Source of the DNA: Flavobacterium limnophilum | GTDB taxonomy: Bacteria > Bacteroidota > Bacteroidia > Flavobacteriales > Flavobacteriaceae | Direction of reading: 5' to 3' | Assembly: GCF_027111315.2 (NCBI RefSeq) | Contig: NZ_CP114289.2 | Span: forward strand, 3,720,001-3,784,000 | Length of the DNA: 64,000 bases | Part shown: piece by piece, positions 17,723 through 49,538 of the stretch | Position numbering within the stretch: position 1 is the stretch's first letter | How the letters are laid out: each line of letters begins with the position of its first letter | Translations under genes and position numbers: made by a program | The notes under the pieces: generated by a model | Database searches by the model: none | What the model saw: the letters and a program-made list of their open reading frames with translations, nothing else | Told to the model about the DNA's origin: nothing

Positions 17723-18688
17723 TTAATCGTGAATCGGACTTTGGGTACAAGGACAATCACTGATCCCTTGAAGGAAGTCCAATCCAACGGTAATCATGTG
17801 CGTGCCGGAATTAAAGGCCGTCATTTCATTGAAAGTCATTTGGTAAGAATAGCCAAAATAGAAAACGGATTTCTTGAAGCCCGCCATTGGTCCCAAATTT
17901 AAAGGCTTTAATACCTGGTCATTCAGAAAACGATAAGACATCCCTACCCAATAGTAATCGTTGTTATTGTTGTATTTTCGATACTTGGCGTTCAAATCGG
18001 TGCTGGAACGTCCGTCACTGGCGAAGTATTGAAAATAGACCGAAGGCTCAATCTCGGCATAATTATTAGTTTTAATCACGTAACCTGTATAAGTTTGAAA
18101 ATTGAGGAGCAAATTGGGTTCAATTTTATATCCGGAAAATTGGTCGATGTCTTTATTCAAAATATTGTTGGCATTCAAACTCAAATAAAAATCACCCCTG
18201 CGATACAGAAATCCAACATCAAAATTATTGTTTGAAAATTTTCTGTCGTCTGTAATGGCATAATCGGGATTGGTGGGGCTTAAATTGGAGATGTCGATAC
18301 TAAAAGTGTTGACGTTGTAGGACATACCAAACGACAAATATTGTTTGGAATAATAATCCAATATCAAATGATGGGCAAAAGAGAATTTGGCTCCCGCTTG
18401 ATTGGTATTTCCATTTTTGTCATTGTAGAAAGAAAACCCAACTCCGGAACGATCGGCAATTCTAAAATCTCCATATAGGGATTGATTGTCGGGTGCGTCT
18501 TTTATCCCTACCCATTGGGTTAGTCCGTTGGCCCTGATTCTAAGATTATCGCCAATTCCGGCATAAGTGGGAGAAATCACGAAGGGATTATCGGCTAAAT
18601 ATTGAGTGAAAACCGGTAGATTTAACTCTTGACCGTAACCCGAAGTTACAGTCAAGAGCAAAAAAGACAGTATTGCTATTTTTTTCAT
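17723..18688 (-). CDS. sprF: PorP/SprF family T9SS outer-membrane protein
   Basis: A 321-residue outer-membrane beta-barrel of the PorP/SprF family (TIGR03519). In Flavobacterium johnsoniae SprF is needed for secretion of the giant adhesin SprB through T9SS. Signal peptide MKKIAILSFLLLTVTSGYGQ; early landmark LPVFTQYLADNPFVISPTYAG, then alternating barrel strands and the family's C-terminal GLDFLQG. It lies 47 bases after the giant adhesin, the same order as sprB-sprF in F. johnsoniae, so the symbol rests on both family and synteny. Convergent with the GH95 gene, 24 bases between stops, with no clear terminator. Confidence 0.88.
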   Translation of the reverse strand: MKKIAILSFLLLTVTSGYGQELNLPVFTQYLADNPFVISPTYAGIGDNLRIRANGLTQWVGIKDAPDNQSLYGDFRIADRSGVGFSFYNDKNGNTNQAGAKFSFAHHLILDYYSKQYLSFGMSYNVNTFSIDISNLSPTNPDYAITDDRKFSNNNFDVGFLYRRGDFYLSLNANNILNKDIDQFSGYKIEPNLLLNFQTYTGYVIKTNNYAEIEPSVYFQYFASDGRSSTDLNAKYRKYNNNNDYYWVGMSYRFLNDQVLKPLNLGPMAGFKKSVFYFGYSYQMTFNEMTAFNSGTHMITVGLDFLQGISDCPCTQSPIHD

Positions 18689-18735: not shown

Positions 18736-21700
18736 TTATCTGTACAAGGTGAAATGACCAACAAACTCGCGGGAATCCTGTTCATTTCGTAGTTTTAAAA
18801 CATACCAGTAATCTCCTGTCGGCAATTCTTTGCCGTTGTATTTACCATCCCAAAACTGTCCTTCTCTGTAGGTGCCTACTTTTCGTCCGTAGCGGTCAAA
18901 AATATGGAAAACCAAATCTGGATAATTCATTGTGTTTGTCGGCGTCCATCCATCGTTGTCTCCGTCACCGTTAGGCGTGAACACATTTGGAATTTTGATG
19001 TCGATGAATTCATAATATCTCGTAGCGGTTGCCACGCATCCATTGGCATCGGTAACCGTAACGGTATAATCACCGGATTTGTAATAGATGAATTTGCTTT
19101 GACCACCCATTGGCTCACCATTTAGGGTGTATTGGTATCCACCGGCACCGCCTGTCACGGTGGCCACAATTTCGTTTAATCCTCCATCCGACAAGACTAG
19201 TGTTAACGGATCGATTTGCAAAATCTCGAAATCTAGTGTATTGACTTCGCAACCGTTGCTGTGTCGTGCCGTAATCTGATGTATGCCCGGGGCAACGTTT
19301 TCAAATACATTGCTCAATTGGAACACATTGGTAGCTGCATAAGGCACGCCGTCCAATGCATAATCTACATCGGCAGGATTTGTAATGCTGGCATCTAGGG
19401 TCACCGTAACGGTTAAACTAGGCGAATTGTTCAAACAACCATAATCAACAATGGCTTTGGGATCCAATTTTACCGATTCCGGCAAAGGAACCATAATTTC
19501 GGTGTTACATAAATTGGCATCGCGGATATACACCGTATGATTTCCTCCTGCCAAGCCTGTAAAATCAAACTGGGTTTGGGTGGCAGTACCGGAAGTAAAT
19601 GGCCCGTTGATCTTGTCCAAACTCACACTGTAAGGCAGTGTTCCTCCGGTAATGTCGACAATAAAGGCACCGTCTTTGTCACCAAAACACATCTCGGGCA
19701 TTATTGACGAAGCAATTACTGATGCAACAATAGGTGTTGGCTCATCAATCACGATTCCTGTTTCGTGTATATAACATCCATTTTGGTCTTGGGCAATGAT
19801 TTCATAGCTTCCCGGCGCCAAATTTTCAAAAACGTTTGAAGTGAAAAATTGGTCTAAACGTGGAGATATGGCATACTTAATGATACCCGTGCCTCCAGAA
19901 GCAGTAATTATTATTGTTCCGTTGTTGGCTCCATTACAGGTTGCATTTATAGGAATTGGGGAGGCAATTAACGGCAATAGTGGTTGTGTTATGGTCACTG
20001 TTGCCGATGTTGCATTACAATCACCGCTAACCACGCCAACTTTATAAGTACCGGCACCCAATTGGGTAAAATTGCCCGGTGTTGCTTGAACCGCACCTGC
20101 AACAGGCAAGTTTGTGGCACCATCAAGCAAGGTATAAACATAATTGCCTAAACCTCCATTGGCCACGGCGACAATAACCCCTGTTGTTTCCCCTGTACAA
20201 TTGACAGATGTGGTAACATAATCCAAGGAAACAGTCAATGTCGGCAATGGTTCAATCTTGACGTCATTGGACACATAACCGTTACATCCGTTGGCATCAC
20301 GAACATAATAACGATAGGTGCCAACCGGTACTGATATCGCTACCGATGAATTGAATGTTGCAGGATTATAGGTAATTCCGTCTGCACTGTAAGTGTATGG
20401 TGCTGTTCCTCCTGTTGCCGCAAGCGTCAAGGTTGATTGTGTCAGACAAGTTTGTGAAGTTGTCAAAACTAAGCTGGCTTCAACGATGGTAGGCTCGGCA
20501 ATGGTTATGGTCGATGAAGTGGTCGCACTACATCCCCAACCATCGGTCACGCTCACGGAATAGGTTCCTGCTGCCAACCCTGCAAACACATTCGAGGTTT
20601 GAGGCCCGGAAGTGATTATTGGCGTGGCAGACATGGTATTCAAGGTGTACAAATAATTCGAACCTTGACCTCCTGTGGTAGTGTTTACCGTAATCACTCC
20701 AGTAGTATCTCCATGACAAGACAAGATCGCTGTATTTGCAGTGGCATTAATAACTATTGGAACAGGATTGCTTAAAACAACAGGTGTTGAATCTACACAT
20801 CCTTTACTGTCTCTTACGTTTACTGTATAACTTCCTGCAATTAATCCCGTGAATTCAGGATTTGTAGAATAAGCCACATTTACCGGCCCAACCAATTCGT
20901 ACTCATAACCACCCGGCCATCCACCAGAAGCAGTTGCCGAAATGGTACCGTCGTTATTTCCTGTCGCACAAGTGATTTCGGTATGGGTTGCTGTACCATT
21001 CAATCCCGCTGTTGGCCCTGCAATGGTAAAGTTTTTGGCAACCGTGCAGAAAGGCGTATTGGTTAATGTAGCAGTAATGGTGTAAACACCAGCTCCTAAA
21101 CCGGTCAAGGTTGTTGCAACGGTAGCTGATGAACCTCCAGGCAAACTATTGCCCAAGGAATCCACCAAGGTATAAGTAAACGCTCCCGCACGACTTGGCG
21201 TTGACGAGTCAACTATCGTGACATTGGCACTACCATTGGTACCTCCAAAACAAGTTACATCGACAATATTGGCAACAACAAGATCAAAAGTATTCGGTTT
21301 CGAAACATAATGCACCTCTTGAATGCTGCATCCTGTTGCTGGATTGCTGGCGGTAATTATGTAATTGCCCACGGTCAATCCGGTAAAAATTCCGGTCGCG
21401 TTTGGCGCAAATACAAGAGTTCCCGAAACATCCACCAAGGCATATTGTATTCCGGCTATTGCAGTTCCCGAAGCATCGACAGCCGTAGCCGTGATAGTTT
21501 CTGGATTGTTGCAGGTGATGGCTGGATTGACAACCACATCCACATGGTCTAAAGCAATGTAGGGTGCAATGGTAATTGGAGCAGTAGTCGTTCCAATACA
21601 GCCATTGGAGTCAAATACGTTTACAATATAAGAACCACCCCTGAGGTCTGCTTCTGTATAAACAGTGCTGGAACTGAACTGTACTCGTGTATTTGGCGTT

Positions 21701-24700
21701 CCCACTTTGATGAACTCATAGTTTAAATAAGTGTTAGATCCTCCCGTTACTCCAGTAACGCTAATAGTTGCCAAGTTTCGTACATTGCCTGAGGTGCAAC
21801 CAAATGGTGCTACAACTGGGGCAGGAACGGCAATAAGGACTGGTTCATCTACACGAATGTTAGCCGTTGCTCGACAGCCTCTTCCCGAAATAACATCAAC
21901 GGTATAATTTCCAGCTGTTAATCCTGTGAATAAATTAGAAGATTGAAGTGTGCCTCCGTTCAAACTGTACATATACACCGGATTGTCATTTACGCCTACA
22001 ACTGGTATGGCCATGGTGGACGTAATGGTACCATCGTTGCCTCCGTTACAACTAACATCCGTTTTCGAAAGCGCAAAATCGGTGACAATAGTGGCCCGTT
22101 CGATTGTAAAATCAATTGATTTAACACAACCTGTTCCTAAATCTCTAACATAAAACGTATAAGGCAGCACATTTGGAGCTAACCCCGTAAATACATTATT
22201 TGACCCATAAGTTGATCCATCCCTACTGTATTCATAAGTTGAAGGAATTGTTCCGCCAGTGGCCGTTAAAGTAACTGCACCATCAGCATCGTTACAATTA
22301 GGAATAGCAGTAATTGAGGCTGTTAAGGTTAATGGCTCCAAAATAGTTACGGGATAGGTCGCAGAAGGACAGCCATTGGCGTCTTTCACCACAACATTAT
22401 AGCTTCCTGGCGCATTAACCGTAAGGATGTTGCTGTTGTGGAAACTACCATCCACGCTGTATTGTAATGCAGCACTAAATCCTGCCGCCGTTACCGTAAT
22501 GTCATAAGTGCCAGTTGCACTTGGACATTGGGTAGCTACAGCAGTAGCAATAGTTGGATTGGCATCCAAAAGAATCGTTTGTGGTTTGTTGAGAGGACAA
22601 CCATTGGTGTCCATTACGTAAACCACCCAGTTCATCACCGTTCCGTTATTGGTATCCACTGCAAGTTGGTTACTCAATACATAATCAGTCAATGCTGGTG
22701 CAAGTGCACTGGCAGAAACCACCGCATATTTATAAGTTCCTGTTCCGCCTATTGCAGTAACGGTTATAGTGGCATTATCGTTGGAACAATTGATGTTCGT
22801 GGCGGTCGCCGTGAAATCAATCGCAGGTAGTTGACTCACTGCAAAATCAACTACATCGTCAACACATCCCGAAACGTCATCGGTAACCGTGAAGGTATAA
22901 GTGCCCGCCGGTAAATTGGTGTAACGAATCACGTCACCATTCACGGTTGGCGGAACTACTGGTGCTGGCACTAAACCATAGGTATAACTACCCGCGGTAA
23001 TATAATTGGCCACGGTAAATTCAATTACACCGCTGCTGTCACCGTTGCAATACACATCGTTTATCAAACGGGCGGTAACCGAAATCTTGTCGGCTTCTTC
23101 TACCACAATTGGTTTTGTGGTACTACAACCATTGGCATCCGTCACTTGGATAGTATAGGTATCTGGCGCCAAGTTGGCGAAACTAATAGTATTGACAGGA
23201 GCACTTGGAGCTGTTGCTGCTGTCCCCGGTGCAATTATCTGGAAGACATAAGGTCCAACGCCGCCAGTAACACTATTAACCGTAACTGTTGCCTCGGCTG
23301 GTGTGGTACTGCAATAAATTGGCGTGGCAGTAATATCCATATCAGTTGGTGGCGTGTAGGGAAGAACATCAGCTGAACCACTTACACTACAACCGTTGGC
23401 ATCACGAACCACATAAAGAATCGTTTGGGCACTGTTGACAGGGAAGGAAGCCGAAGCTTGCCAATTGGCTCCATTATCAAAACTATAAGTGTATCCTGGC
23501 GTTCCGTCTGCGGCTGTAATGGTTACGATGGCATCCTGTGGCGCATTGGCAGTATCACAACCAAATGGCGTTACCGCATGCGTTGCGGTAACCGCAGTAG
23601 GTTGACCAACACTAACCGGAATGGCAGCAGAAACACACATTTTGGCATCTCTAACGAATAGTGTGTAAGAACCAAATCCTAAACCGTTAAACACATTCGA
23701 ATCTTGATAATTAACCCCATCTGTACTGTATTGGTAAGGAAGAATTCCTCCAGACGGTGTCAATGTTATCGTTCCATCAAGCGACCCTATGCAACTAACG
23801 TTCGTTGATGCCGGAATAGCCGTTGGTGTTGTTTTTGGAGTGACAATCACGTCTTGCGATTCGGCTTGACAACCTTGTGTATCGGTTACCCTGAATTTGT
23901 AGGTGCCTGCTGTATTGGTGGTGTAAGGAGACCCAGCAATTGGATTGTAACCAGCATTATTGATATTTACCTCATACCCAACGTAAGAAGTTGTTCCTCC
24001 TCCAGGCACCAAGGTTATGCTGGCATTAAGCGCACAAGTCAAGTCTTGCGTCATGTTGGCTTGCAAAGTCAATGGCGGTTGAACTATATAATCCACCATA
24101 TTGGACGGACAACCATTGGCATCCACGACACTCAATTGGTAAGTGCCCGCGGCGGTAATGGCATAAATCGGATTCGTTGTGTTGGAACCGTTTATAGTGT
24201 AATATTTAACCGGACCTACCGGAACTGTGGTCACCCCAGCAAGATCAATCGTAAAGGACGTTCCATCAAAACACTGCGGAGCTGGCAATGCGATTGTTGG
24301 CGAAGCATCCATGGCAACACTTATGTCTAGTTTGAAAGTACAATTGTTATTGTCTTTTACCCAAACATCATAATTGTTTGGAGCAGGCAATACGGCACTG
24401 GCACTTGGTTTATAATCCGTAAGCAATGGTGTGGCAGTGTCTGCTACAAAAGCATAGGTGTAATTAGGTGTTCCACCGTTGGCAAGCACCGTAACTTTGG
24501 CACCCGAATCACAATTGGCATTGACTCTGGCACTGACCACTTCGGTAAGAGTTAATGGATCAGTCGGTTGATTAACAACCACTAGCGTTGTTGCTTTACA
24601 ACCTGTTGTAACATCAACAACTTCAATTTCATAAGTATCGGCAACTAAATCAGTAAGCGTTACCGCATTAGCACTCTTAACTATTGTTCCTGCAGATCCT

Positions 24701-27700
24701 TGCAATAAACTATAAGTAAATGCTCCGGCAACTTTTACATTTTCTACCGTAAACGTAACCGCTCCATTATTAACTGCTGGAGTATAATTACAACTCACGT
24801 CATTGATCAATTGGCCAGAAACGGTAATATTGGTTACTGGGGCAATGGTGTGCGAATCCTCGAAAGAACAGCCGTTGGCATCGGTTACTTTGAACAAATA
24901 AGTACCTGGAGACAAGGCCGAGAATGTTGGATTATTTAAATTATCGACAGCATCAGCAATTGGCGAAACAATTTCATATTTCACAATAGGATAACCTCCA
25001 GTTACTGCAACGGTAAGATCTGTTTTAGGATCGTTACAAGTTATATCGGCAGCTGTAAAACCTAAACCTGTTATTTTTTGATAGGCTGGCACAGCTACAG
25101 TATCATCAAATAGACAACCATTGGCATCTTTTACATAATAATGAATCGTTTGTAGACTTGTGCTAACGTCAACAAGCAAGGTATTGGCATCGTAATAAGT
25201 AGTCGAACCGTCAAAATTGTATTTGTAAGGTCCCGTTCCAGTTGGCACTCCCAATACGCTAGTCACGTTTACGGTTACCAATGCGGGTTGTGCAGTATTG
25301 CTGGCGTTGCAAACATAAGGAGCTACCGTGGCCGTTGCTGCCAATTCTAAAGGTTCTGTAATGGTAACCGGAATAGCAACTGACAGACACTCTTTGGCAT
25401 CTTTTACCACAACAGAATAAGTTCCTGCAATTAAGCCTGTATATACACCTGTGGCATCTCCAGAATTGTTTGAACCCGTTCCCGTTAATGTAAAAGTGTA
25501 CGGTAGGATTCCTCCGGATGGTGTCAACGTGATGGTTCCGTCTGCTCCACCATTACAACTAACATTGGTTTGGGCTGGAGTAGCCGTTGGAGTTGTTTTT
25601 GGTGTTACAACAACAGCTGTCGAAAGCGCTGGACAAGACGGTACTTGATTGTCTGTAACCCTGAATACATAACTTCCATCTACAAAAGCTGTATAAGGAT
25701 TTGATGCCGGAACAAAAGGATCTCCGTTAAAAGATACTTCAAAACCATTATACGTTCCTGTTCCTCCTCCAGGTACCAAGGTTATGCTGGCATCATCCGC
25801 ACAAGTCAAGTCTTGCGTCATGTTGGCTTGCAAAGTCAATGGCGGTTGAACTATATAATCCACCACATTGGACGGACAACCATTGGCATCCACGACACTC
25901 AATTGGTAAGTGCCCGCGGCGGTAATGGCATAAATCGGATTCGTTGTGTTGGAACCGTTTATGGTGTAATATTTAACCGGGCCTACCGGAACTGTAGTCA
26001 CCGCAGCAAGATCAATCGTAAAGGACGTTCCATCAAAACAATGTGGAGCTGGCAATGCGATTGTTGGCGAAGCATCCATGGCAACACTTATGTCTAGTTT
26101 GAAAGTACAATTGTTATTGTCTTTTACCCAAACATCATAATTGTTTGGAGTTGGAAGAGTGACCGGCAATACGGCACTGGCACTTGTGGTATAATCCGTA
26201 AGCGCTGGTGTGGCATTGTCTGCCACAAATGCGTAGGTGTAATTGGGTGTTCCGCCGTTGGCAAGCACCGTAACTTTGGCACCCGAATCACAATTGGCAT
26301 TGACTCTGGCACTGACCACTTCGGTAAGAGTTAATGGATCAGTCGGTTGATTAACAACCACTAGCGTTGTTGCTTTACAACCTGTTGTAACATCAACAAC
26401 TTCAATTTCATAAGTATCGGCAACTAAATCAGTAAGCGTTACCGCATTAGCACTCTTAACTATTGTTCCTGCAGATCCTTGCAATAAACTATAAGTAAAT
26501 GCTCCGGCAACTTTTACATTTTCTACCGTAAACGTAACCGCTCCATTATTAACTGCTGGAGTATAATTACAACTCACGTCATTGATCAATTGGCCAGAAA
26601 CGGTAATATTGGTTACTGGGGCAATGGTGTGCGAATCCTCGAAAGAACAGCCGTTGGCATCGGTTACTTTGAACAAATAAGTACCTGGAGACAAGGCCGA
26701 GAATGTTGGATTATTTAAATTATCGACAGCATCAGCAATTGGCGAAACAATTTCATATTTCACAATAGGATAACCTCCAGTTACTGCAACGGTAAGATCT
26801 GTTTTAGGATCGTTACAAGTTATATCGGCAGCTGTAAAACCTAAACCTGTTATTTTTTGATAGGCTGGCACATCTACAGTATCATCAAATAGACAACCAT
26901 TGGCATCTTTTACATAATAATGAATCGTTTGTAGACTTGTGCTAACGTCAACAAGCAAGGTATTGGCATCGTAATAAGCAGTCGAACCGTCAAAATTGTA
27001 TTTGTAAGGTCCCGTTCCGGTTGGCACTCCCAATACGCTAGTCACGTTTACGGTTACCAATGCGGGTTGCGCACTATTGCTGGCGTTGCAAACATAAGGA
27101 GCTACCGTGGCCGTTGCTGCCAATGCTAGAGGTTGAGTGATGCTAACCGGAATGGCAGCAGAAACACACATTTTGGCATCTCTAACGAATAGTGTGTAAG
27201 AACCAAATCCCAAACCGTTAAACACATTCGAATCTTGATAATTAACCCCATCAATACTGTATTGGTAAGGAAGAATTCCTCCAGACGGTGTCAATGTTAT
27301 GGTTCCATCAAGCGACCCTATGCAACTAACATTTGTTGATGTCGGAATAGCCGTTGGTGTTGTTTTTGGAGTGACAATCACGTCTTGCGATTCGGCTTGA
27401 CAACCTTGTGTATCGGTTACCCTGAATTTGTAGGTGCCTGCTGTATTGGTGGTGTAAGGAGACCCAGCAATTGGATTGTAACCAGCATTATTGATATTTA
27501 CCTCATACCCAACGTAAGAAGTTGTTCCTCCTCCAGGTACCAAGGTTATGCTGGCATTAAGCGCACAAGTCAAGTCTTGCGTCATGTTGGCTTGCAAAGT
27601 CAATGGCGGTTGAACTATATAATCCACCATATTGGACGGACAACCATTGGCATCCACGACACTCAATTGGTAAGTGCCCGCGGCGGTAATGGCATAAATC

Positions 27701-30700
27701 GGATTCGTTGTGTTGGAACCGTTTATGGTGTAATATTTAACCGGGCCTACCGGAACTGTAGTCACCGCAGCAAGATCAATCGTAAAGGACGTTCCATCAA
27801 AACAATGTGGAGCTGGCAATGCGATTGTTGGCGGAACATCTTTGGTTATAGTCACCGTGGTAACATCAGTACAGTCGTTAGCGTCTTTTACATACACATC
27901 AACCGCCCAAGTCGTTACTACACCTACGGTTACATCATTGGTCAGGATTGCGGTATCTACATTGGTATTGTTGCTAAATACTGGTATTGCAGTAGAACCT
28001 GCTTCTAAAAAAGCATATTGATAAGTGGCTTTTCCTCCCGTAGGATTCACCGTAATGACACTGCTGCTATTGTTGCAATTTACATTCGAAGCCGAAGCCG
28101 TGATGTCTAATACAGCTGGCGGTTGTGTAATGGTTACTGATTTAGTTATGTCACATTGGGTAATATTGTCCTTCACTGTCACTGAATAAGTTCCTTGTGA
28201 AAGACCGGTTAACGTAATCACGTCTCCCACCACGGATTTCGTATAAGGCAATAAAGGTGGAGTGGTTGCTTCTGTTACCGTATAATTTCCTGATATGCTA
28301 AACCCGGTTACGATGAATTTTGCACTACCTGTGGCACCACCAAAACAATTCACGTTGGCAGTAACTTCTTCTTGCAGTTGTATCTTAATTCCTGGAAGAA
28401 CGTTGACCAATTTTTCATCGATACAACCATTGCCATCCGTCACGCGGAATAAATAATCGCCCGCAGCTAAAGAAAGAAACACATCATCATTAGTTTGAGA
28501 AGCAATAGCGGTTCCATTAGAATTGTATTCAACAGAATACGTGAATGGCGCTACACCACCTGTTATATTCAAATCTACGGTACTAGTAGTATTGGCACAA
28601 TCAATAACCGACATGGTTGGTGCCATGGTTGGCGGCACTAATGGAGCTACTGTTGCGGGTTGCATTACCGAAGTACAATTATTGGCATCTCTTACGATAA
28701 TGTTATAGGGACCGGCAATAGTAGTCTTGTAAAAATTATCACTGGAATAATTTGCTCCGTTATCAAAACTGTATTCAAGTGCGCCTGTTCCGCCTGAGGC
28801 TGTAACGGTAATAGTGGCTTCTTGTGCGCTATTGCTGGCACCGCAAGTTAATGGAGCAACAGCAATATTTGATATTACTATTGGAGCTGGGTCAGTAAGC
28901 GTGGCATCAATAGTTTGTTCACAGTTTTTGGAATCTTTTACATAATAAGTAACAGCCCCTTCTAAAGCGGTTTGGCTAAAGACATTGATAGCACTATAGG
29001 TACCTGCAAGACCCTTTTTATATTGATATATACCCGTTCCTCCGGTAGCCGTAACCACTACTTGGCCGCTAGCACCCACACAAAGAGGATTCGTTGGGGC
29101 AACGGCAGGCACGATCGGTACCAAAGCATCGATGGTTATGGTATTGGTTGCAGTACAGACACCATCACTTACTTGGAAAGTATAATTACCGGCATCCAAG
29201 TCCGTAAACACGCCAGATGCTACACCTGTTGCGTTATTGGTAGTCCCTGCCGCAATTGAGTAGGTGTAAGACGCAGTATTTCCGCCAGCTGCCGTAACGG
29301 TCACGATTGCATTTGGCCCAGCGGTAATACAATCTAACCCTTCGGTCAAGGTTGGAGTAATCGTTAATTGGTCTTTTATTTCATAAGGTGTTGAAGCCAC
29401 GCAGCCATTACCGTCTTTTAGGTTCAAGGTATAACTGCCGGATGACAGGCTAAAATTGGCCGAACTTTGGTAAGCACCCAATACCGCACCATTATCTACA
29501 CTATACGTTACTGGTCCTACAATAGAACCCGTATTTCCAGTGATGGTTACTGCTATTGGACTTCCGGTATAACAAACTACCGCTGCAGGCGCAACAATGG
29601 TTGGTGCAGTGTCCAAAAGAACAGTGACATCCGCTTTTTTAATACAACCATACGCATCTTTTACATAAACATCATAGTCGCCAGCATCTTTGTTAAAAGT
29701 ATTGGAAGCGGCAAAAACAGTTGGTGCTGTTGCACCATCTGGTTCAATGGCATATTCATAAGGCCCAGTACCATTTTTGGCAACCGCAGTGATGATTCCG
29801 GCATTGGTAGTACAAGTATTGTCGTTTTTAGTACTGCTGGCTGTTAGGCTCAAATCAATGGCCGATTCTGTAATATCGAATGGTGCCGATGAAATACTAC
29901 ATCCATCATTTGTTGCTCCTGCAGTTTCAGTTACCAATACAAAATAGTTACCAAATGGTAATGCACCAAAATTATTTACTACCAATGAACCACTTGCAGG
30001 AATAGTTGCCGCAACAGCTGACCCAACTGGAATTACTGATTGTGAATTATAAATTTGGTAAGTTACTGGAGTAGCAGCACCATAAGTATGATTTATGGTG
30101 AAAGTCACACTTCCATCATCAGCACCTTTACAAGTGATATTATTAGCCGTTATTGGGTTAACAGTTATGTTAGAATTTGTTGGTACGGGTTGCGTAGCTG
30201 TTTCAAAATAGTAACATCCAGTACCTGCATCGTGAACAATAAATGTATAAGTAACTCCTGGGATTAGATTTGGAATTATGGCTTTTTTACTATTTGGCCC
30301 ATCTTCATCATACCATGGTAAGGTAGTTGGACCAGTGTAAGTTAATCCAGGACTGTAAACCGCAAAATGAAATGGCCCAGTGCCTGTTATTGTACCTCCA
30401 GTTCCTGAGCTTCCAATTGCAACTTCAGCAGAACTTAATCCAACACAAGTTGGAGCTCCTAGAGCCACATTAATATCTAAATCATCTGGTGGCGAAAATA
30501 TAGAAATATTATTCTCATAGGCGGAACACCCATTGGCATCCGTTATGATTATTTGATACAATCCAAAATCAACAACATCAAAAACAGCAGTTGTTCCGGT
30601 TTGGTTAATGAATTTCTTGTCATATAATCCATTAACTCCCGTAACGTGATAAGTATAATTTGGAGTTCCTCCAGATACGGAGTTTATTGTTATTGATCCT

Positions 30701-33700
30701 AATGACACTCCTGTTAAACTATTACAAGTTATTGGAGTAATAGATTTAGTGAAAGTTATTGCTGTCGGTTCCGCAATAGTAATATCTTCTGTTTTAAAAC
30801 AACCTTTTGCATCGGTAAGAGTGACTACATAAAAACCGGCTGGCAATCCAGAGGTTTGTGTTCCAAAATCCTTTACAAATGACAAATGCGCAATATCGGA
30901 ATATTGTTTCACGTTGATTACAAAAGGTGCCGTACCTTGTGTATTATCATAAGTTACTTTTATTTCGGCAGTAGATTCTCCATTACATAAAATAGGTTTA
31001 TCAAGTGTAACTGTTTGTAAAACCACTGGCACGGGGTCTGTAACTGCTATAACATTGGTAGTGACGCTACATATTTTACTGTCGGTAATCTCAAAACTAT
31101 AATTCCCCGCGCTTGCAAACGTTTCCTGGAAGCTTGGCGTAGCACTGGTTTTTGGAGCACCAACCGGAATGCCTCCGTCTAATATTTGATACGTAAAAGG
31201 AGCAAATCCATCAGTGATGGTTACGTTTATGGTTGCAGCTACCGGCAGTGAACAAGTGATATCTTTTCCTAAAGCGGCTCCGGCTTTTATTGGTTTGTCC
31301 ACGATATAACTCACAGTTACAGGACAATTATTGGCATCTATCACACCAAGTACATACGTGCCTGCCGCAGTGACAGTATAGGTATTTCCAACAATGCTGG
31401 CGCCATTTACGGTGTACTTTAGTGGAGCAATTCCACCACTTCCCACTAGAGTAATAGGGAAAGGAGAGCCGGTAAAACAGTGTGCAGCAGGCAGGGCAAT
31501 GGTTGGCAAAGCATCTTTCGCAACGGCCACATCCAATATTTGTTTGCTGCAATTATTGGCATCAAGTACATATACATCCCAATTGACAGTGGCTGGATCT
31601 AAATTGCCTATGTTGCTGGCGGTGTAATCTCCGACAACTGGTGATACACCATCTGCTACAAAAGCATATTGATAAGGTGCTTTTCCACCATTGGCGGCTA
31701 CTGTAACTGTAGCAGTTGGTGTTATACAGTTGGCATTTATATTGGTCGAAGATGCCAATACCAAGTCGGAATTTTGCGTAATGGTGAAGGCTACATCTTT
31801 AAAACAAGAGGTGTTGCCATCGGTAATTCGTAAAACGTAAGGACCAGCTACTAATACGCTTACATCCACGGTATTTCCAGTAATACCAATTGATCCCGAA
31901 CCAGTAGTCAAGACAGCGGTATAAGTACTGAAATTAGTCACGTTTATTTTCGCACTTCCTGTATTGTTGCCAAAGCACAACACATTGACTTGAGATTGCA
32001 AGGTAGCATTGATGTCAACTCTTGCAGGGATGTTAAGCATTTCGGTATCACTACAGCCATTGGCATCGGTGACTTTGAAAACATAAGTACCGGCAGTCAA
32101 TCCGGTAAAAATACCATTACCGGCACCTGAGGTATTGCTGGTTGGGCCAGTCACTATGGTATAAACAGGTGTTCCTGTACCATTAGTTGTGGTTATTGTT
32201 GCAGTACTGGTTGTCTCTCCTGTCTTACAAGTGATGATGGATGCCCCAATCCCAGTGATTACCGGAGGGTTTAGGGTATTTACGACAACATTTGCCAAAG
32301 CAACACTACAATTGTTGCCATCACGCATGCTGATTGTTACAGGACCTGAGGCACTGGTAGTATAAGAGGTATTGGCGGTATAAGCCCCACCATTATAACT
32401 GTATTCGTAAGATCCATTTCCTCCAGACGGAGCAGTAACGGTTATGGTTGCCGCTTGTGGCGCATTTCCAGTCCCACAGGATAAGGCGGTACCTAATGCT
32501 GTCGTGGCTGTTAAAACATCAGGCTCTGTAATAGTCGCAGTTATGGTACCGGTACATCCTTTGCTGTCTTTTACATAAAAAGTATAAGGTGTCGCTGATG
32601 CCGTTAATCCAGAGAACAAACTTGTTGGTACAAAAGTAACATTGTCATCACTATACGTATAACCTCCTGAACCTCCTGCTCCTGCCAATTGCACGGAACC
32701 ATTATTTCCACCATGACAAGTAACGTGGGTTGGTGTTGCCGTTACGCTAGGATCGGCGATTGGGCTTACGGCTACAATGCTTGTTGCAGTACATCCAGGG
32801 GTATTTGCGTCAGTAACGGTTACGGTATAGGTATCCGCAGCAACTCCCGTATAGGTGAATGTTGGCCCTGCAACTCCGGTTCCCGAAGCCACTGAAGCCC
32901 CTAAACTATTGGTGATTACATAACTATAAGGTGCTTTTCCTCCAGTTATCGTGGTAGTTATTGTAGCATTTGGTCCCGCTGTATTACAATCCAATGTTTT
33001 GGTAACTTGTGCCAATGCCGTCAATTGGGGGTAAACCGTTGTTGGGGCGGCAGAAGCCGGACATCCATTGGCATCTTTTACCCAAACGATGTAAGTTCCT
33101 GATGCCACTGTAAAAGTAGGGCTGGATTGGAATGCTCCCGTTACTCCATTAATGCCATAAGTTAATGGCGTTAAGCTTGCAACAGAAGGTGTGGCCGTAA
33201 TGGTAAAATTACTTCCCGTGGCGGTACATTGCCCTCCAACTGTAACAGCAGTTACTGATGGCATTGGATCAGTGGTTACAGCTACATTTACAAAATCAAC
33301 ACAACCATTGGCGTCTTTAACCCAAACATCCCAAGATGGTGTCGCTGGATTTAAATTAGCAACGCTGCTTGCAGAATAAGCCCCAGGAGCATTCCCGGCA
33401 GCAACAAAGGCATAAGTATAAGTTCCAGTTCCGCCTGTGGCAGTAACAGTAACTTGGGCTGTGGTTACATTACAATTGGCATTTACATTTGAAACCAAAC
33501 TTATATCCAAAGGATTTGTTGGCTCACTAATAGTTACCGATTTAGTATCCGTACAACCTGTTGTTTTATCCGTGACACTAAAATTATAGATACCTTCAAC
33601 AAGATCACCAAGGGTGTGAACATCCCCAACATTAGTAGGCGTGAAAGGCAATCCTGCTGGCATGGAAGTTACGGAAATGGTGTAATTTTCTGTAGCGCTG

Positions 33701-36700
33701 AATCCCGTTACGTTAAATCTTGCACTACCGGTTGAACCATCTTTACACAATACATCGCTAAGCTTGGTGGCCGTTACCGCAATAGGGGTTACTACGGGAA
33801 CATGATGGGAATCAATGGCAAAACAACCATTGGCATCCGTGACTTGGAAGGTATAAGTAATTCCGCCTGCCAAATTGGTGAATATTCCCGATGAAGCACC
33901 ACTGATGTTTGTGGTAGCCGAAGCTGGAGCAGTAATTTTATAGCTAAGTGTTCCCACACCCGTTCCTGGTGTTCTGGTAACGGTCACTGTACTTGTGGTG
34001 GCCAAAGGGGAACAATAGATATCAGTATGTGAAATACTGGCTATGGTTGGCGGATTTAATGGTGCTAAATCTATTTGTTGCATTGCAGATGGACAACCAT
34101 TGGCATCTTTTACGATAATTTTAAAAGATTGCGTGCTGCCATTGTCATCTACTGTCAAACTATTGCTTGGGCCAAATGATCCTCCGTCATTGAAACTGTA
34201 GGTATAAGAAGTCCCTGTTCCTCCAAATGCAGCTACAGTAATAGTGGCTGCTTGTTTGGTGTTTGTTAGACTACAACTAAAAGGAGTTGGTGTCGCTGTA
34301 AAATTCACTAGGCTAGGCTCTGTAATGGTCGCAGTTATGCTACCGGTACATCCTTTGCTGTCTTTTACATAAAAAGTATAAGGTGTGACCGATGCCGCTA
34401 ATGCTGTAAATAATGAAGTCGTCGTGAATCCAGTCGTTGCATTGGTGCTATACGTATAACCTCCTGAACCTCCTGCTCCTGCCAATTGCACGGAACCATT
34501 ATTTCCGCCATGACAAGTAACGTGGGTTGGTGTTGCCGTTACGCTAGGAGGGGTGATTGGGTTTACGGTTACAATGCTTGTTGCAGGACATCCATTATCA
34601 TCAGTAACGGTTACGGTATAGGTATCCGCAGCAACTCCCGTATAGGTAAATGTTGGCCCTGCTTCTCCAGTTCCCGTAGCCACTTGGGTACCTCCGCTAT
34701 TGGTAATTACATAACTATAAGGTGCTTTTCCTCCAGTTATCGTGGTAGTTATTGTAGCATTTGGTCCCGCTGTATTACAATCCAATGTTTTGGTAACTTG
34801 TGCCAATGCCGTCAATTGCGGGTAAACCGTTGTTGGGGCGGCAGAAGCTGGACATCCATTGGCATCTTTTACCCAAACGATGTAAGTGCCTGATGCCACG
34901 GTAAAAGTAGGGCTGGATTGGAATGCTCCCGTTACTCCATTAATGCCATAAGTTACTGGCATTACACTTGTAGCAGAAGGTGTAGCCGTAATGGTAAAAT
35001 TACTGCCTGTTCCTGCACATTGGTTGCCCACTGCTGCAGTTACTGATGGCATAGGATCGCTAACAACTGTAACGGTAGTTTGTGTAGTACAATCATTGGC
35101 GTCTTTTACATAAACATCCCAAATTAAATCGACACCAGAATTCGTATCCACTGTTAAAACAGCGCCACTTCCATAAGTCGATGTTGGAATTGTCGATGGG
35201 TTTTTTGCAAAAGCATACGTATAATTTGGCGTTCCTCCACCATTGGTACTAATTGTAATTTGTGAATTATCATTGTTGCAATTGACGTGCGTTGCCGTTG
35301 CGCTGCTAATCGCCAATGCTGCCGCTGGTTGTGTAATAGTTACCGATTTAGTATCCGTACAACCTGTTGTTTTATCCGTGACACTAAAATTATAGGTACC
35401 TTCAACAAGATCACTAAGGGTATGAACATCCCCAACATTAGTCGGCGTGAAGGGCAATCCTGCTGGAATGGAAGTTACGGCAATGGTGTAATTTTCTGTA
35501 GCGCTGAATCCCGTTACGTTAAATCTTGCACTACCGGTTGAACCATCTTTACACAATACATCGCTCAACTTGGTGGCCGTTACCGCTATGGGTGTTACTA
35601 CGGGAACATGGTGTGAATCAATGACAAAACAACCATTGGCATCCGTGACTTGGAAGGTATAAGTAATTCCGCCTGCCAAACCGGTGAATATTCCCGATGA
35701 AGCACCACTGATGTTTGAGGCAGCCGAAGCTGGAGCCGTAATTTTATAGCTAAGTGTTCCCACACCCGTTCCTGGTGTTCTGGTAACGGTCACTGTACTT
35801 GTGGTGGCCAAAGGGGAACAATAGATATCAGTATGTGAAATACTGGCTATGGTTGGTGCGTTTAATGGTGCTAAATCTATTTGTTGCATTGCAGATGGAC
35901 AACCACTGGCATCCTTTACGATAATTTTAAAAGATTGCGTGCTGCCATTGTCATCTACTGTCAAACTATTGCTTGGGCCAAATGATGCTCCGTCATTGAA
36001 ACTGTAGGTATAAGAAGTCCCTGTTCCTCCAGATGCAGCTACAGTAATAGTGGCTGCTTGTTTGGTGTTTGTTAGACTACAACTAAAAGGAGTTGGTGTC
36101 GCTGTAAAATTCACTAGGCTAGGCTCTGTAATGGTCGCAGTTATGGTACCGGTACATCCTTTGCTGTCTTTTACATAAAAAGTATAAGGTGTCGCTGATG
36201 CCGCTAATGCTGTAAATAATGAAGTCGTCGTGAATCCAGTCGTTGCATTGGTGCTATAAGTATAACCTCCTGAACCTCCTGAACCGGCTAATTGCACGGA
36301 ACCATTATTTCCGCCATGACAAGTAACGTGGGTTGGTGTTGCCGTTACGCTAGGATCGGCGATTGGGCTTACGGTTACTTTGCTAGTTGCGGTACAACCA
36401 GGAGTGTTCGCGTCAGTAACGGTTACGGTATAAGTTTCCGCTGCAACTCCTGTATAGGTAATTGTTAGCCCTGCAACTGTTCCCGAAGCCACTGAAGCGC
36501 CTAAACTATTCGTAATTACATAACTATAAGGTGCTTTTCCTCCAGTTATCGTGGTAGTTATTGTAGCATTTGGTCCCGCTGTATTACAATCCAATGTTTT
36601 GGTAACTTGTGCCAATGCCGTCAATTGGGGGTAAACCGTTGTTGGGGCGGCAGAAGCTGGACATCCATTGGCATCTTTTACCCAAACGATGTAAGTGCCT

Positions 36701-39700
36701 GATGCCACGGTAAAAGTAGGGCTGGATTGGAATGCTCCCGTTACTCCATTAATGCCATAAGTTAATGCACCCGTACCTCCCGTACCTGTAGCCGTAATGG
36801 TAAAATTACTGCCCGTTCCTGCACATTGGTTGCTCACTGCTGCAGTTACTGATGGTGTTGGATCACTGACAACTACTACCGGTGTTGTTGTTTTTGTGGT
36901 ACAATCATTGGCGTCTTTTACATAAACATCCCAAGATAATACTGTGCTCGAATTGGTATCTACGGTTATAACAGGGTTGGGTAAATATACCGGCGTGGCT
37001 GTACTGCCGGCGGGTAATGCCGCATAGGTATAATTTGGCGTTCCTCCTGTGGCGGTTACCGTGATTTGGGAATTGTCGTTGTTGCAATTGACAGACGTTG
37101 CAACTGCTGTGGCAATGGCCAATGCTGCTGCTGGTTGATTGAGTGTAACGGTGTAATCGTCTGTACATTTTGTTTTTCTGTCGGTTACGGTAATCGTGTA
37201 AACTCCTGCAGGTTGTGCAGCAGGAACATTGATAATAGTAACTGCATTAAGTGTCGGACTTAGGTTACTGCCACTTAGGATAGTGGTTCCTCCGGCGTTT
37301 TTAATTATATAATCGTATTTTTCTTTTACGCCATTCACTGTAAATTGAATAGTACCCGTACCTCCAAAACACTTGATTGGACTAAGGACACTTCCTCCGG
37401 CTACTATGTCGGGTGCGCCATTAACGGTATAGGGTTTTGTAAGTGAACATTTCGTTTTGGTGTCTGTCGCTTGAAATACGTAATTCCCCGGTGCCAAGGA
37501 TTTGAATTCTCCATCAGAGCTGATAGATGCGTCATATCCTGGAGGCCCAGAAATAATTTGGAAACGAATTGGGGCAGATACTCCGCTAGCGGCAATATTT
37601 ACGTGTCCTCCCGGTGGACTTGTGGCACAATCATAGCCGCTATCGGTAATGGTGATGGATGAAATTTGGTCAAAAGCCGCAATGGTTACAGGCAACGGCC
37701 CCATTTGACAGCCATTGGCATCTCTTATATAGGCATTTACTATTCCTGCTGCTGAAGTAGAATACGTATTGCTCGTTGTAAAATTAGTGGTAGAGTTGAA
37801 ACTGTACTGATAAGGGGCAGTTCCTCCTGCTCCGTTTACGGTAACCACGGCTGGCACTGTACCAGTAGCACTACATTGTATGTCAGTGGCACTAATGGTT
37901 CCGGTAACAACACCTGGATTCACGATGGTAACATTGCTCACTAAAGATTCGCAGCCTTTGCTGTCAATTACCTTGATGTTATAGATTCCTGCTGCCAAAC
38001 CGGTAAATTGATTGGTTGCCTGGGTCGAATAAGTAGTTGCTGAACTTGGTTTAATGGCATACGTATAAGTAGTGGTAAAACCATTGCTTGCCGTAACCGT
38101 TATCGTTCCATTATTGGCATTATTACAAGTAATATCGGTTTTGTTAAAAGTTAAAGTTGGCGTAGTCTTGGCAGTAACCGTTATAGTATTGCTGGTGGCT
38201 GGACAACTTTTGCTATCAGTAACCGTAAACACATAAGTTCCATCTGTAGTTGCTGTATAAGGAAACGTCGGTGCAGGCAATGCTACTCCATTACGAGTCA
38301 CTGTATAAGTATAAGGAGCTCCATATCCACCACTAACGGTACTGGTTATTGAAGCATTTACCAAACAAGTCAAATCTTGAGTCAAAGTGGCGGCAATCGT
38401 TAACGGAGTCTTGATATCGATATTGGATATTGGCGCTGTACAATTGTTGCTGTCGGTAACCACTATATTGTGTATTCCCGGACTTACATTAGTGAAAGTA
38501 TTGGTACCTATTGGTGCATTTCCATCCAAGGCATACGTAAATGGCCCTACTCCTCCTGTAACATTCACCGCCAAAGTGGCAGGATTTGCCGTGGTGTAAC
38601 ACCAGTCTGTCGCAGCATCCAACGCCGCGCTTAAAGTGGGTGCAGCCAAGACATTTACCGGAGCACCTACAGCACTAATACATCCATTGGTATCTTTTAC
38701 AAAAACGGTATAATTTCCCGTTGGAACATTGGTGAATACTCCGCCATTATTTACGAAAGCAGTCACTACTGAAGCACCTTGACGCAATTCGTATTGATAG
38801 GCCGGTGTGCCTCCACCTCCAACAGCTGTAATGCTTGCTCCTGTGGTACAAGTCGCCAATGTAGTTACCGAAGCCGTCACGGTTACGGCGGCCGGTGCCG
38901 AAATTTGTTGGGGAAGTGTCAAGGAACAGGCTCCGGTGGCATTAAGGTCATAACGCACCAAAACAGAATAACTCGCTGGACTCAAACCCGTAATCGTGTA
39001 AGGTGATGTCATTGACGTGGACCAATTTGTTCCGCCATTGATGGAATATTGAAATCCGTTTGCAGGATTAAAATTTTGGGCCGATATCGTGATCTCGCCA
39101 TCATTACCTCCTGAACAATTCACGTTTTTGAAACCTGAAATACTGGCGCTAAAGGCTTTGTCTGTGGCAATAGTTATAGGGAAATCTTTTTGGGTAATGC
39201 ACGATTTCGGTATTTGATAAACATAAATATCATCTACTGCTAAATCATTTCCATTAACTACAGTACTGTTGGATAAAATTTGAAAATCTAAAGACGTATT
39301 GTTCCCTGGATTTAATTTAAAAATGGTACCTCCTGCCAAATCGGTACTGGAATGCCATTGTTCATCCCTTGGAATACTTGGCATCACTTGAGAAGCGATT
39401 ACAGTTCCTCCTTTTACTAATTGAATGGTCAATTGAGGAGAAGGAAGATTATTTGTTGTTTTCAACAAATTAAGCATATACAAGGACACGTTAATATCTT
39501 GGTTGGGAAGCACGTCATTGATAGGCTTGCTGTACAAAACGGCTCCAACTGGAATGGTTTTACCAATATTAACTGCTAAAAATCTTCCATCGGTAATCGC
39601 AGGGGTATTATTTAATACTGACGTATGGTCTTTGGGCAAAGTCCAATTAAAATCATTGGCGTGATCGGGAAGCAAGGCTTTGGTAACTACGTATTCACCA

Positions 39701-42700
39701 TCATTTAAAAGCCAAGAATTCCAGCCATCCGCTGCAACACAATCAATAAATGCAGCAGTATTTCCATCTTGCTTTTCCCAACAATAAGCTGAGTTAATAC
39801 CTGGAGACTTGGTGTCTCCACCTCTTCCAAAATCTTCTATCAATAAGTTACTATAAGTACTTGCCGTATTGACATTGTATTGTACACTAATGGTATGCGA
39901 ACCCGATGCAACGTTTGTGAAAACATTGTTGGTAATCGGTGTATTTGGTGTATTATCAATTAAGTATTGATAGGAATAATTAGAAGCACTATTGATTACT
40001 GTTACCGTACTGGTAGCCGTTCCGTTGCAATTAAAAACAGGATCGTCCACTTTTATTGTTGGTTCAGCAGGTATTGGATCCAGAATAATGTTGTAAGGAA
40101 TAGCATATTCGCAACCCAATGCATCTTTTACTTTTAAAATATAGGTTCCCGGCAACACGTCTTTTTCATTGGAGGCTTGCCAAGTAATCCCTCCGTCAAA
40201 ACTATATTCATAACCTGGAGTTCCTCCTTCGGCATTGGTAATCCTTACTTTTCCTCCTTGATTTACTCCTGCTACATCTGGCAAAGTACAACCCGCCAAT
40301 TCAGCAACGCCCGCCGAAGCGGTAACAGCCGAGGTTGGCCCTGTAACCGTGACTATCTGGGCTGGATCGGTACAATATTTTATGGTGGGACTACCCCACT
40401 GAGGTGTGTAGGTTATCCCGTATCGCACCACGACATTGTAATCCCCTGGCGTGAGATTGGAAAAGACGGGATTGGTTTGAAAACTGCCTCCGTTATTGAT
40501 ACTATACGAAAGACTGTATCCATTGGCATTGGTAACATCAACGCTGATTTGCGCATTGTCATCATAACAGTTACTGTTGGTATTGCTTACGGTATAAGTT
40601 GGTTTCGCATTATCGGCAACTGTTATGGAGGTGGTCGTGCTGCAATTTTTAGAATCTACCACCAATATATCATATTTACCCGGTGCCGTAACTATAATTT
40701 CATTGGAGGTCTGGAATGTCGTCGATCCATTTACAAAATAATAATAGGGAGCCCAATTTCCTCCTTGAGCCGTTACAACAATTTTTCCGTCACTGCAAGC
40801 CGTTAGCGGTTCTACCAAAGCTGCCGTAGCTGTTAAGGCTGCGGCCGGTTGATTGATATAAATCCATTGGGACTGGTCGCAACCATCTGGCGTGGTAACT
40901 TGAACTTGGTAGGTTTTCCCCGGTGTCAGGTTTTCAAAAGTATAATCGGCATCATTTATTGGCCCCACGCTATTTACTAAAGTTCCTCCATCATATACAA
41001 AATAATTATATTGGGGTAGTACATCATTGGCTGCCACTTTTATGGATCCTTTTTCTCCAAAACACAAGGGCTGGGTAGCCACTGCGGTAACCGAAAAATT
41101 TCTTTGTCTGATAGGAATATTTGGGATGGTAAAGACACACGGATTAGTGGTTACTCCTACTTGTCTGATATAGGCGGTGTATAATCCTGCAGTGTTGATG
41201 GTGAAACTATTGCTCGATTGATAGTTTGTGCCATTGATACTATATTCATAACCCGAGCCTACTCCTCCTATGGTAATGTTACCGAGTTTAGTACAAACAA
41301 TATCCCTATGGGTTTCGGTCGGATTCAACAAGTTTTGATAGACATTGAAATAAAAACGATTAAAACATCCGCCAGGATAATTCAAGGTAAGCCTGAACTG
41401 TCCAGAAGTATTGGCGGTATAATTTGGCCCTGTTTCAACTTGTGTCCAAGTACAAGTGGTGCCTTCATTGGCACAACTGCTATTGGTTACCGCGGTACAA
41501 CTTGCCTCGTCCAGTTTTTCCCATACAATGGTGGAACCATCTGAAATATTGGTCTTGATTAATTTAGAGGCGCCGGCTCCACACAAAAAGAGAAGTGGCA
41601 ATTTTTTTCCATCATTGGGACAAGTGAGTACTTGATCGGCAAATGGAATTACTGGATTCGCTATGACTCCTCCAAAACGGGTAACTGTTACCTCTTCCGT
41701 TATAGACAAACAAGGGGCAATGGCAGTATTATAAACATAATACGTACCAGGATTGGTTACTGTCAGGGTTTGACTATTACCCAAAATAGTACCCGTGGTA
41801 GTACCCGTATTTGTAAACGGCGCAGTAGACCATTTATAGCTATTGTATCCATTAGAAGCCGTTAGTACTACACTGCTTCCACACAAAACCTCACTTTTAG
41901 TAAATTTGCAATCATCAACACCAACTAAAAAATTAGTGGATTGAGGTGTTCCCAAATTACAAGAAGTAAAGGAAGACAAACTAGGATCGTCTGTTATTTG
42001 TGCTGGATTTATCGTCCCTTTGTAAGTAGCATAAGCAGAATTTTTTATTATATTATCACAAGCATCACTTAACTCGTTACACTGAGCAACGACTCTAACT
42101 TTAAAAATGATGTCATAATGTATAAAAGGCCCTCCGGGTACTACTGCCTTTTTTACCAAATTATTGGGTATAGTAAACAGTATTGTACGAGTTGCTGGAT
42201 CGTAAGTATGAGTAACTCCAGCTGGCACGGAAACAATATCAGCAGGATAATTAAACACAACATTAATAGGAATAATATCTTTTATGGTAAATGAGGTAGC
42301 ATCATCATTTCCTTGGTTTTCAAAACCAATAGTATAATTCAATTGTTGCCCCAAAGTAACATTCGCATTACCTACATTTGCCCCCGAATTATTTTTTACT
42401 ACTTTGGTAAGTAAAATGGTTGGTTCAATAATATCAACTGCAAATGTAGCAAGAAATGCAGCGTAACCATCACCCCCCGAAAGGTCTGTAAAAAGCTGTA
42501 AAGTTCCCTGAGTCGCATCGTTGTGGATAACGGAATTGGCTCCATTGGGAATTTCCATATAGTCAATATCAAAACCTAAATTATTGGTGCTTTTAGGATT
42601 TCTATTGGTAACTTGATTATTATCTTTAGTAATGGACGCATTAAAAAAATTAAAAGGCACTACTGGAGCGTCTGTCCCTGGATTTAAGCCATTGCTAATA

Positions 42701-43683: not shown

Positions 43684-43888
43684 CCTTGTAAGCAAAATAT
43701 CAGAGTAATTCTGTCCTCGTGACAAGAATATTCTGCTGACAATTAAAAAAAAGTCAATTATTAATAGGTAATTTTTCTTCATCGGGGGCATTTTTTTATT
43801 TTAAAAGTCCTTTACAAATCAAGGAAAGGGCATCCCCTTGATTCATAAACTAACGCAACTCTTTATTTTTTATAACTGGTTTATTTTC

Positions 43889-49439: not shown

Positions 49440-49538
49440 CAACTAAAATAGTTACTTAGCCGCAATTTAAATAAATATTTTTTTTATAAAAATTACGGCT
49501 CAATTATTACAAAAACGTTCATCTTTCTTTGTTTTTAT

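Follow-up and report, generated by a model that had tools for sequence, protein, structure and literature searches.

The adhesin gene and its seven-module cycle

The window analysed here is a stretch of 64,000 nucleotides from Flavobacterium limnophilum (contig NZ_CP114289.2, positions 3,720,001 to 3,784,000), which carries on its minus strand an open reading frame (ORF) of 8351 amino acids (aa; 18736..43791) for a gliding adhesin of the SprB family. The modules of this protein recur in a fixed order of seven over ten turns, and in this family the turns very probably form two matched halves about one midpoint, where the filament might fold back on itself. Three marks of SprB are present, namely SprB repeats (PF13573; E 1.8e-23 for the N-terminal part, with more matches along the ORF), a type B C-terminal sorting domain (CTD) for type IX secretion (T9SS; 18739..18999; TIGR04131, E 1.9e-25) and an adjoining gene of the sprF family, which follows the adhesin on the same strand and encodes an SprF-like outer-membrane carrier (17723..18688; PF11751, E 4.8e-68; TIGR03519). 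Judged by these three marks, the ORF is an SprB orthologue. Two more secretion-related genes lie upstream on the same strand, one for a protein with a PorP/SprF domain and repeats (43889..47968; PF11751) and one for a protein with a CHU_C domain (47970..49442; PF13585), which we take to be SprD-like and SprC-like, respectively, from the operon order sprCDBF. A long ORF on the plus strand opposite the SprD-like gene (44652-46994) is probably a by-product of repeat composition. The adhesin itself has an N-terminal non-repetitive domain (41881..43632), which served as the query for orthologues, and a head of diverged modules (38926..41364, units 0-7) that gives partial matches to the turn profile and holds an insert of about 200 aa in unit 6 (39115..39780), a unit with no NCBIfam match. 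Many relatives have gaps at the turn position of this insert, and L109 and L124 (handles of this kind are our own) show one in the first turn as well.

Cutting the adhesin at its cysteine motifs gave 86 units. Among units 7-85 the mean identity was 0.464 at a lag of seven, 0.367 at a lag of 14 and 0.313-0.321 at the multiples of seven from 21 to 49, as against 0.254-0.284 at the remaining lags up to 49. Within modules 8-77 the lag-7 signal persisted when pairs from the same near-identical zone were removed (score difference 45.8, standard deviation under label shuffling 1.6, z 27.8), when only modules outside both near-identical zones were used (z 10.9) and when only pairs below 45% identity were kept (z 29.8). 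In a zone-by-zone comparison of periods 2-13, period 7 reached 53.0 and the next largest 8.4; units 68-85 by themselves, which contain little beyond one turn and the tail, gave no period 7 (z 0.3). Furthermore, when the tested turn or its entire zone was left out of the profiles, 67 of 70 modules came out in the expected class, where chance would give 10. We regard it as virtually certain that the seven-module cycle is real and runs for ten turns (21046-38925). The first-pass annotation had described seven ordered classes, a to g, repeated nine times over 22090..38165; the ordered classes are borne out by the held-out classification and by the peaks at multiples of seven, whereas the number of turns is ten and the extent is larger, with units 78-85 before the CTD lying outside the cycle. 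The DNA offsets it listed (1,767-1,806 and 3,531) are present at 1764-1809 and 3531, and its grouping of modules by class letter agrees with the same held-out test, made with profiles in place of a tree of single modules. Weak extra similarity was also seen among modules 8-77 at lags 3 and 4 (also 10, 11, 17 and 18), as if the seven classes shared older halves.

The possibility that lag 7 is a general trait of SprB-type repeat proteins was rejected, as no lag 7 was found in L193, L021 and G230; in L146 (20 units) the lag-7 value of 168 lies inside a high background of 106-176 over lags 1-11. L193 (G000:C1:2079500-2087500), a protein of about 2300 aa and 22 units, is a second SprB-repeat protein of the window genome and is devoid of the seven-module cycle.

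Among relatives, the N-domain alignment A1 matched 127 of 199 genomes of the family at E<=1e-20. The N-domain profile matched 23 genomes in a sample of 146 across the order, every one belonging to the same family; a sample of 296 across the phylum gave 30, five of them outside the family (frames of 722-1641 aa at the match) and 25 within it. This domain family also heads proteins with unrelated repeats (L021, L146, L139+L140), L021 having about forty copies of 71 aa. Seven class profiles, trained on the window protein only and then applied to whole relatives with head and tail included, recovered the a-g order in 349 of 520 confident neighbour pairs from 17 proteins of the genus and in 306 of 586 from 20 proteins of other genera, chance being about 1 in 7. 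The order was kept in 67/73 pairs in F. defluvii and 69/76 in F. panici, with ten turns each; the best readings came from L019L018 (55/58), L011 (42/47) and L022 (33/36), and the poorest from L125 (1/20), L110 (9/34), L025 (1/7), L009 (12/38) and L021 (0/31), the last two having lag-1 arrays. The spacing of recognised turns was exactly seven modules in 161 of 176 cases, a set in which turns were chosen by class match and which includes the nine spacings of the window itself and a few genes twice. Seven modules are consequently the main unit of duplication, as had been proposed. On this distribution the cycle is older than the first-pass annotation implied, the same order being read in SprB orthologues of many genera and poorly in some.

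Turn types and the midpoint

A turn profile was derived from 252 turns, all belonging to relatives and none to the window. It detects ten full turns in the window protein; nearly all other proteins give 2, 4, 6, 8, 10 or 12. The count was even in 74 of 75 counted proteins after two tail hits, one in L131 and one in L185, had been removed by hand; if these are kept, the two counts become 7 and 3 and three of the 75 are odd. The sole odd protein, L123, in which inserts break the first turn, has three hits; in the tree described below it was entered as 4. The counted proteins come from 90 with a complete CTD, from which five tail-expanded proteins, nine of about 2740 aa and one duplicate gene were left out; L163 failed the CTD pattern. 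Hits starting at residue 1000 or earlier were taken as head, and the turn-length threshold was changed from 520 to 480 profile positions after turns with inserts had appeared. The genes are a non-random set of long frames, one-contig genomes and deliberately picked length outliers.

Two other sources of even counts were rejected. An assembly artefact is at odds with a hand list of 27 counted proteins, of which 26 come from one-contig genomes and one (G921) from two contigs, all being even (four more proteins on this list were outside the 75). A 14-module repeat is at odds with the lag values of the window and of the relatives with a clear cycle, where lag 14 does not clearly exceed lag 7, and with turns 1 and 3, or 2 and 4, not being consistently closer than neighbouring turns. 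Most of the 127 frame lengths in the genus, taken by eye among the frames listed and with cut-looking frames left out, cluster about two turns apart. Length outliers (3750-3990, 5338, 6744 and 7924) include L175 and L180L181, which are tail-expanded, L009 with its lag-1 tail, and L152L153, a 5+5 array from a one-contig genome (G861) whose frame ends without the usual CTD. The N-domain tree, made quickly and containing some long branches and 13 open forks, requires no fewer than 28 changes of turn number, all of them between even counts.

At n/2, where n is the number of turns, lies a distinct turn type, M, whose f* and g* modules are long. The first M profile, made from eight proteins, matched at n/2 in 40 of 60 even proteins with at least four turns, seven training proteins among them, and nowhere else; in the other 20 the turn was missed. 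Three-fold cross-validation placed M at n/2 in all 60 held-out even proteins (chance 11.4) and the end turn, E, last in 58 of them. As the training label assumes n/2, odd proteins were excluded and close relatives occur in training and test, this shows that a real turn type occupies n/2 and does not amount to separate proof in every gene.

A tree was made of 132 turns taken from 22 hand-chosen proteins. In it the M turns, 22 in all, group together (support 100), as do the 22 E turns (99), and four turn labels need 5 changes compared with a shuffled mean of 67. For the regular turns of the N half and the C half alone, 3 changes are needed compared with 30, and the first and second regular turns within each half tend to group separately. 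We infer from these groupings a basic layout of N1 N2 M followed by C1 C2 E, in which the 2+2 forms would be without N2 and C2 together and the longer forms would multiply both. Recent amplification is mainly of N2 and C2 turns. The likening to satellite DNA made earlier is apt as regards a multi-monomer unit of fixed order, and fails in that amplification is largely confined to these two turn types and that turn types group by position across species.

In the window this layout starts with turn 1 (N1, modules 8-14, 37165..38925), followed by three N2 turns, turn 2 (modules 15-21, 35359..37164), turn 3 (modules 22-28, 33553..35358) and turn 4 (modules 29-35, 31804..33552), the last resembling turns 2-3 in b-d. 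Turn 5 is the midpoint turn M (modules 36-42, 29899..31803) and ends in the unusually long modules 41 (f*, 104 aa, 30214..30525) and 42 (g*, 105 aa, 29899..30213). The C half comprises turn 6 (C1, modules 43-49, 28153..29898), the C2 turns 7 (modules 50-56, 26377..28152), 8 (modules 57-63, 24598..26376) and 9 (modules 64-70, 22864..24597, its first part like turns 7-8), and the end turn E, turn 10 (modules 71-77, 21046..22863). A tail of seven non-cyclic modules (78-84, 19249..21045) completes the array. Taken together, matched halves about one midpoint are a highly probable feature of the SprB family; the even count, the single midpoint and the matching had all escaped the first-pass annotation.

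Roughly mirrored duplications, a shortened form and tails

Near-identical copies occur in both halves of the window protein. By eye, the N-half zone covers modules 15-32 (32554..37164; measured at aa 2297-3736) and the C-half zone modules 51-67 (23635..27870; measured at aa 5319-6599); turns 2-3 are at 88% identity and turn 4 at 62%, turns 7-8 at 78% and turn 9 at 61%. In G996, turns 2-5 are at 90-99%, turns 8-10 are identical, turn 11 is at 77% and turn 7 at 66%, and in L019L018 the value is 79% in each half. Zone edges were mapped in 12 proteins with at least eight turns, the eight-turn L189L190, without clear zones, being left out. At a threshold of 0.75 the axis between the inner edges lay no more than 0.9 module from the boundary between f* and g* (aa 4529 in the window) in 12/12. 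The two inner-edge distances differed by 0.76 module on average and by 1.8 at most, with a correlation of 0.89; with one protein for each of seven hand-chosen groups the correlation was 0.91, and 133 of 20000 permutations reached as high a value. A parallel correspondence of the halves was rejected in favour of a mirrored one, the mean offsets being about 0 to 9 modules for the former and 0 to 1.8 for the latter, and the two are hardly separable in the window, F. defluvii, F. panici, L019L018, L183L184 and L167L168. The duplication zones of the two halves appear to mirror each other roughly about the two long modules, the inner edges fitting better than the outer ones. The array duplication pattern of L178L179 is very similar to those of L165L166 and L150L151, with N-domain tree positions apart, a mismatch that hints at recombination between array and N-domain.

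A shortened form offers a second view of the same axis. Compared with L144, all nine relatives of about 2740 aa lack sequence on both sides, with 240 aa absent on the N side in seven of them (194 in L043 and 207 in L059) and 245-246 aa on the C side; pieces below 60 aa are unlisted in this comparison, and L144 was the reference for all nine and L053 for two. From a reading of the module ends, the absent modules would be g of the head with a and b of M on one side, and d, e and f of E on the other. The common midpoint of the two lacks falls at L144 residue 1825, between module ends at 1807 and 1835, which are taken as the end of f* and the first cysteine of g*. The nine relatives may be one clade and so represent one event, a loss rather than a gain by assumption. 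One genome (G204/G269, contig C5, 577105 and 592556) carries a relative of this size and, some 15 kb away, an orthologue of 4704 aa.

Tails differ among relatives. Tails amplified with a three-module repeat, lag 3 being highest and the seven-module cycle replaced, follow the E turn in L171L172, L180L181, L143, L191, L023 and L175, L009 has a lag-1 tail, and L160 is a 2+2 protein with a longer tail of mixed signal. Both such tails and the absence of about three modules per side in the 2740-aa form speak against the heptad as an unbreakable unit.

Arrangement of the filament and known systems

A proposed arrangement that would account for matched halves is as follows. The SprB core would consist of head, N1, k copies of N2 and M, then C1, k copies of C2, E and tail, with k equal on both sides. 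The chain would be exported by the type IX system and anchored at the cell surface through its CTD on SprF, and would fold back between f* and g* of the M turn, so that the N arm and the C arm would run antiparallel, the f*/g* region would form the filament tip and the N-terminal domain would come back near the cell surface. Seven modules would be the register in which the arms match, so that new copies would arise by unequal recombination within one arm, and a change in one arm would persist only with the other arm matched. That the filament folds back at its midpoint into paired equal arms is our favoured, if tentative, reading; our confidence in it was lowered from evenly balanced to slightly below that, given the tied match to RbmA and a filament length without clear support. 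The fuller version, in which SprB is an obligate hairpin fibre of one chain with antiparallel equal arms, a tip at f*/g*, both ends at the cell and every gain or loss answered at the facing place, is held a shade more tentatively.

A number of observations weigh against this arrangement. As regards the arms, their overall length correlation of 0.99 follows mostly from the split at n/2, and at fixed turn number it is weak (r 0.15 for four turns and 0.47 for six). As regards the zones, L189L190 shows no clear ones, the outer edges are less mirrored (mean difference 2.7 modules), L165, L150 and L178 have a shorter C zone with the axis off by about 3, the axis in F. panici is off by 1.3 at a threshold of 0.85, and f*/g* was picked as the axis after the 2740-aa form and G996 were known. 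In five complete proteins (L009, L143, L175, L171L172 and L180L181) a 1+1 core is combined with long additional tails that are confined to the C side, and in L182, where no CTD is recognised, the tail gives a lag-7 signal that has no counterpart on the N side. The SprB of F. johnsoniae, at 6497 aa in excerpts of PMC9870892, falls between the 3+3 (5666-6124 aa) and 4+4 (7001-7284 aa) proteins counted, and it may have seven turns and be an exception to the even rule. On the structural side, some 50 unrelated rows tie with the RbmA match and its passing over f* is a reading of the first-to-last range, f* and g* are fitted in sequence by another row, 7y6e (107-311), and GhpA, the closest relative with a solved structure, is an extended heptamer; GhpA was not among the best 50 matches listed for the apex model, which excludes nothing. 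An SprB of about 6500 aa is about 150 nm long according to a review, a length that lends no clear support, and an extended hook protein of 6596 aa makes about 180 nm.

The strongest of the rival explanations is a single-file or multimeric extended rod like GhpA, in which M would be a hinge, joint or adhesive site that works best half-way along and is kept central by selection. We consider this rather unlikely: such a rod offers no reason why zones should mirror each other about f*/g* or why the 2740-aa form should be short of similar stretches on either side, and a hinged rod should tolerate one turn off centre. It is also possible, at a lower level of probability, that the heptad is one superhelical turn, as the first-pass annotation had suggested, selected for helical register independently of pairing. 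The unit of seven is kept across the family, and helical repeats of 10.8, 17.0 and 8.5 nm are given for SprB legs in excerpts of PMC6791848; parity and midpoint would be left unexplained, nine relatives are short of about three modules per side, and related tails have lag 3 or lag 1. A superhelical heptad and the fold-back are not mutually exclusive. A pairing of two chains, the N half of one with the C half of another, would require equal halves and predict both these and the mirror symmetry equally well, and the same excerpts call SprB legs multimeric, give their thickness as about 20 nm and note helical layer lines in them. Both C termini would be expected at the same membrane, which makes an antiparallel dimer awkward, whereas the fold-back needs one chain, and we hold the two-chain form to be improbable. 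Least probable is pure history, in which an ancestral heptad was amplified and even counts passed on by descent without constraint. Turn types are inherited by position, so that part of the order is descent, and yet the changes of turn number on the N-domain tree run only between even counts, near-identical copies occur in both halves of the same protein and every one of the 26 counted proteins whose genome is a single contig has an even count.

SprB drives gliding in a large bacterial group, and the literature, in the excerpts available, says little on how its chain is arranged or which part touches the surface. If the matched arms of the fold-back arrangement are true, the tip would lie at a definite, conserved pair of modules with both ends at the cell, a geometry that can be tested, and filament length would follow turn number, providing a ruler across species that can be read from genomes. 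The evolutionary pattern is also unusual, in that two distant parts of a gene change copy number in step.

With F. johnsoniae SprB, a gliding adhesin and T9SS type B substrate, the window protein shares the following SprF-family gene, the SprB repeats and the type B CTD; no description of a heptad cycle, positional turn types or matched halves was found for SprB in the openly licensed literature searched. The closest solved structure is the grappling hook protein GhpA of Aureispira sp. CCB-QB1 (9flp, 9flv, 9fly), with which the module fold, a tandem beta-sandwich, is common, although GhpA belongs to another Bacteroidota family and forms a heptamer in which the chain spans the filament. The second match of the profile in the PDB is RemZ (8gl8, E 4.1e-10), a chain of 1114 aa with one matched stretch. 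Contact-dependent effectors of the CdiA type are said to form filaments that fold back with a distal tip, and their unrelated fold and secretion route make the likeness to SprB an analogy only. The array shares with the higher-order repeats of satellite DNA a multi-monomer unit that is repeated with its monomer classes in fixed order, and differs from them in being protein-coding, old, inherited by position and matched in turn number between its halves.

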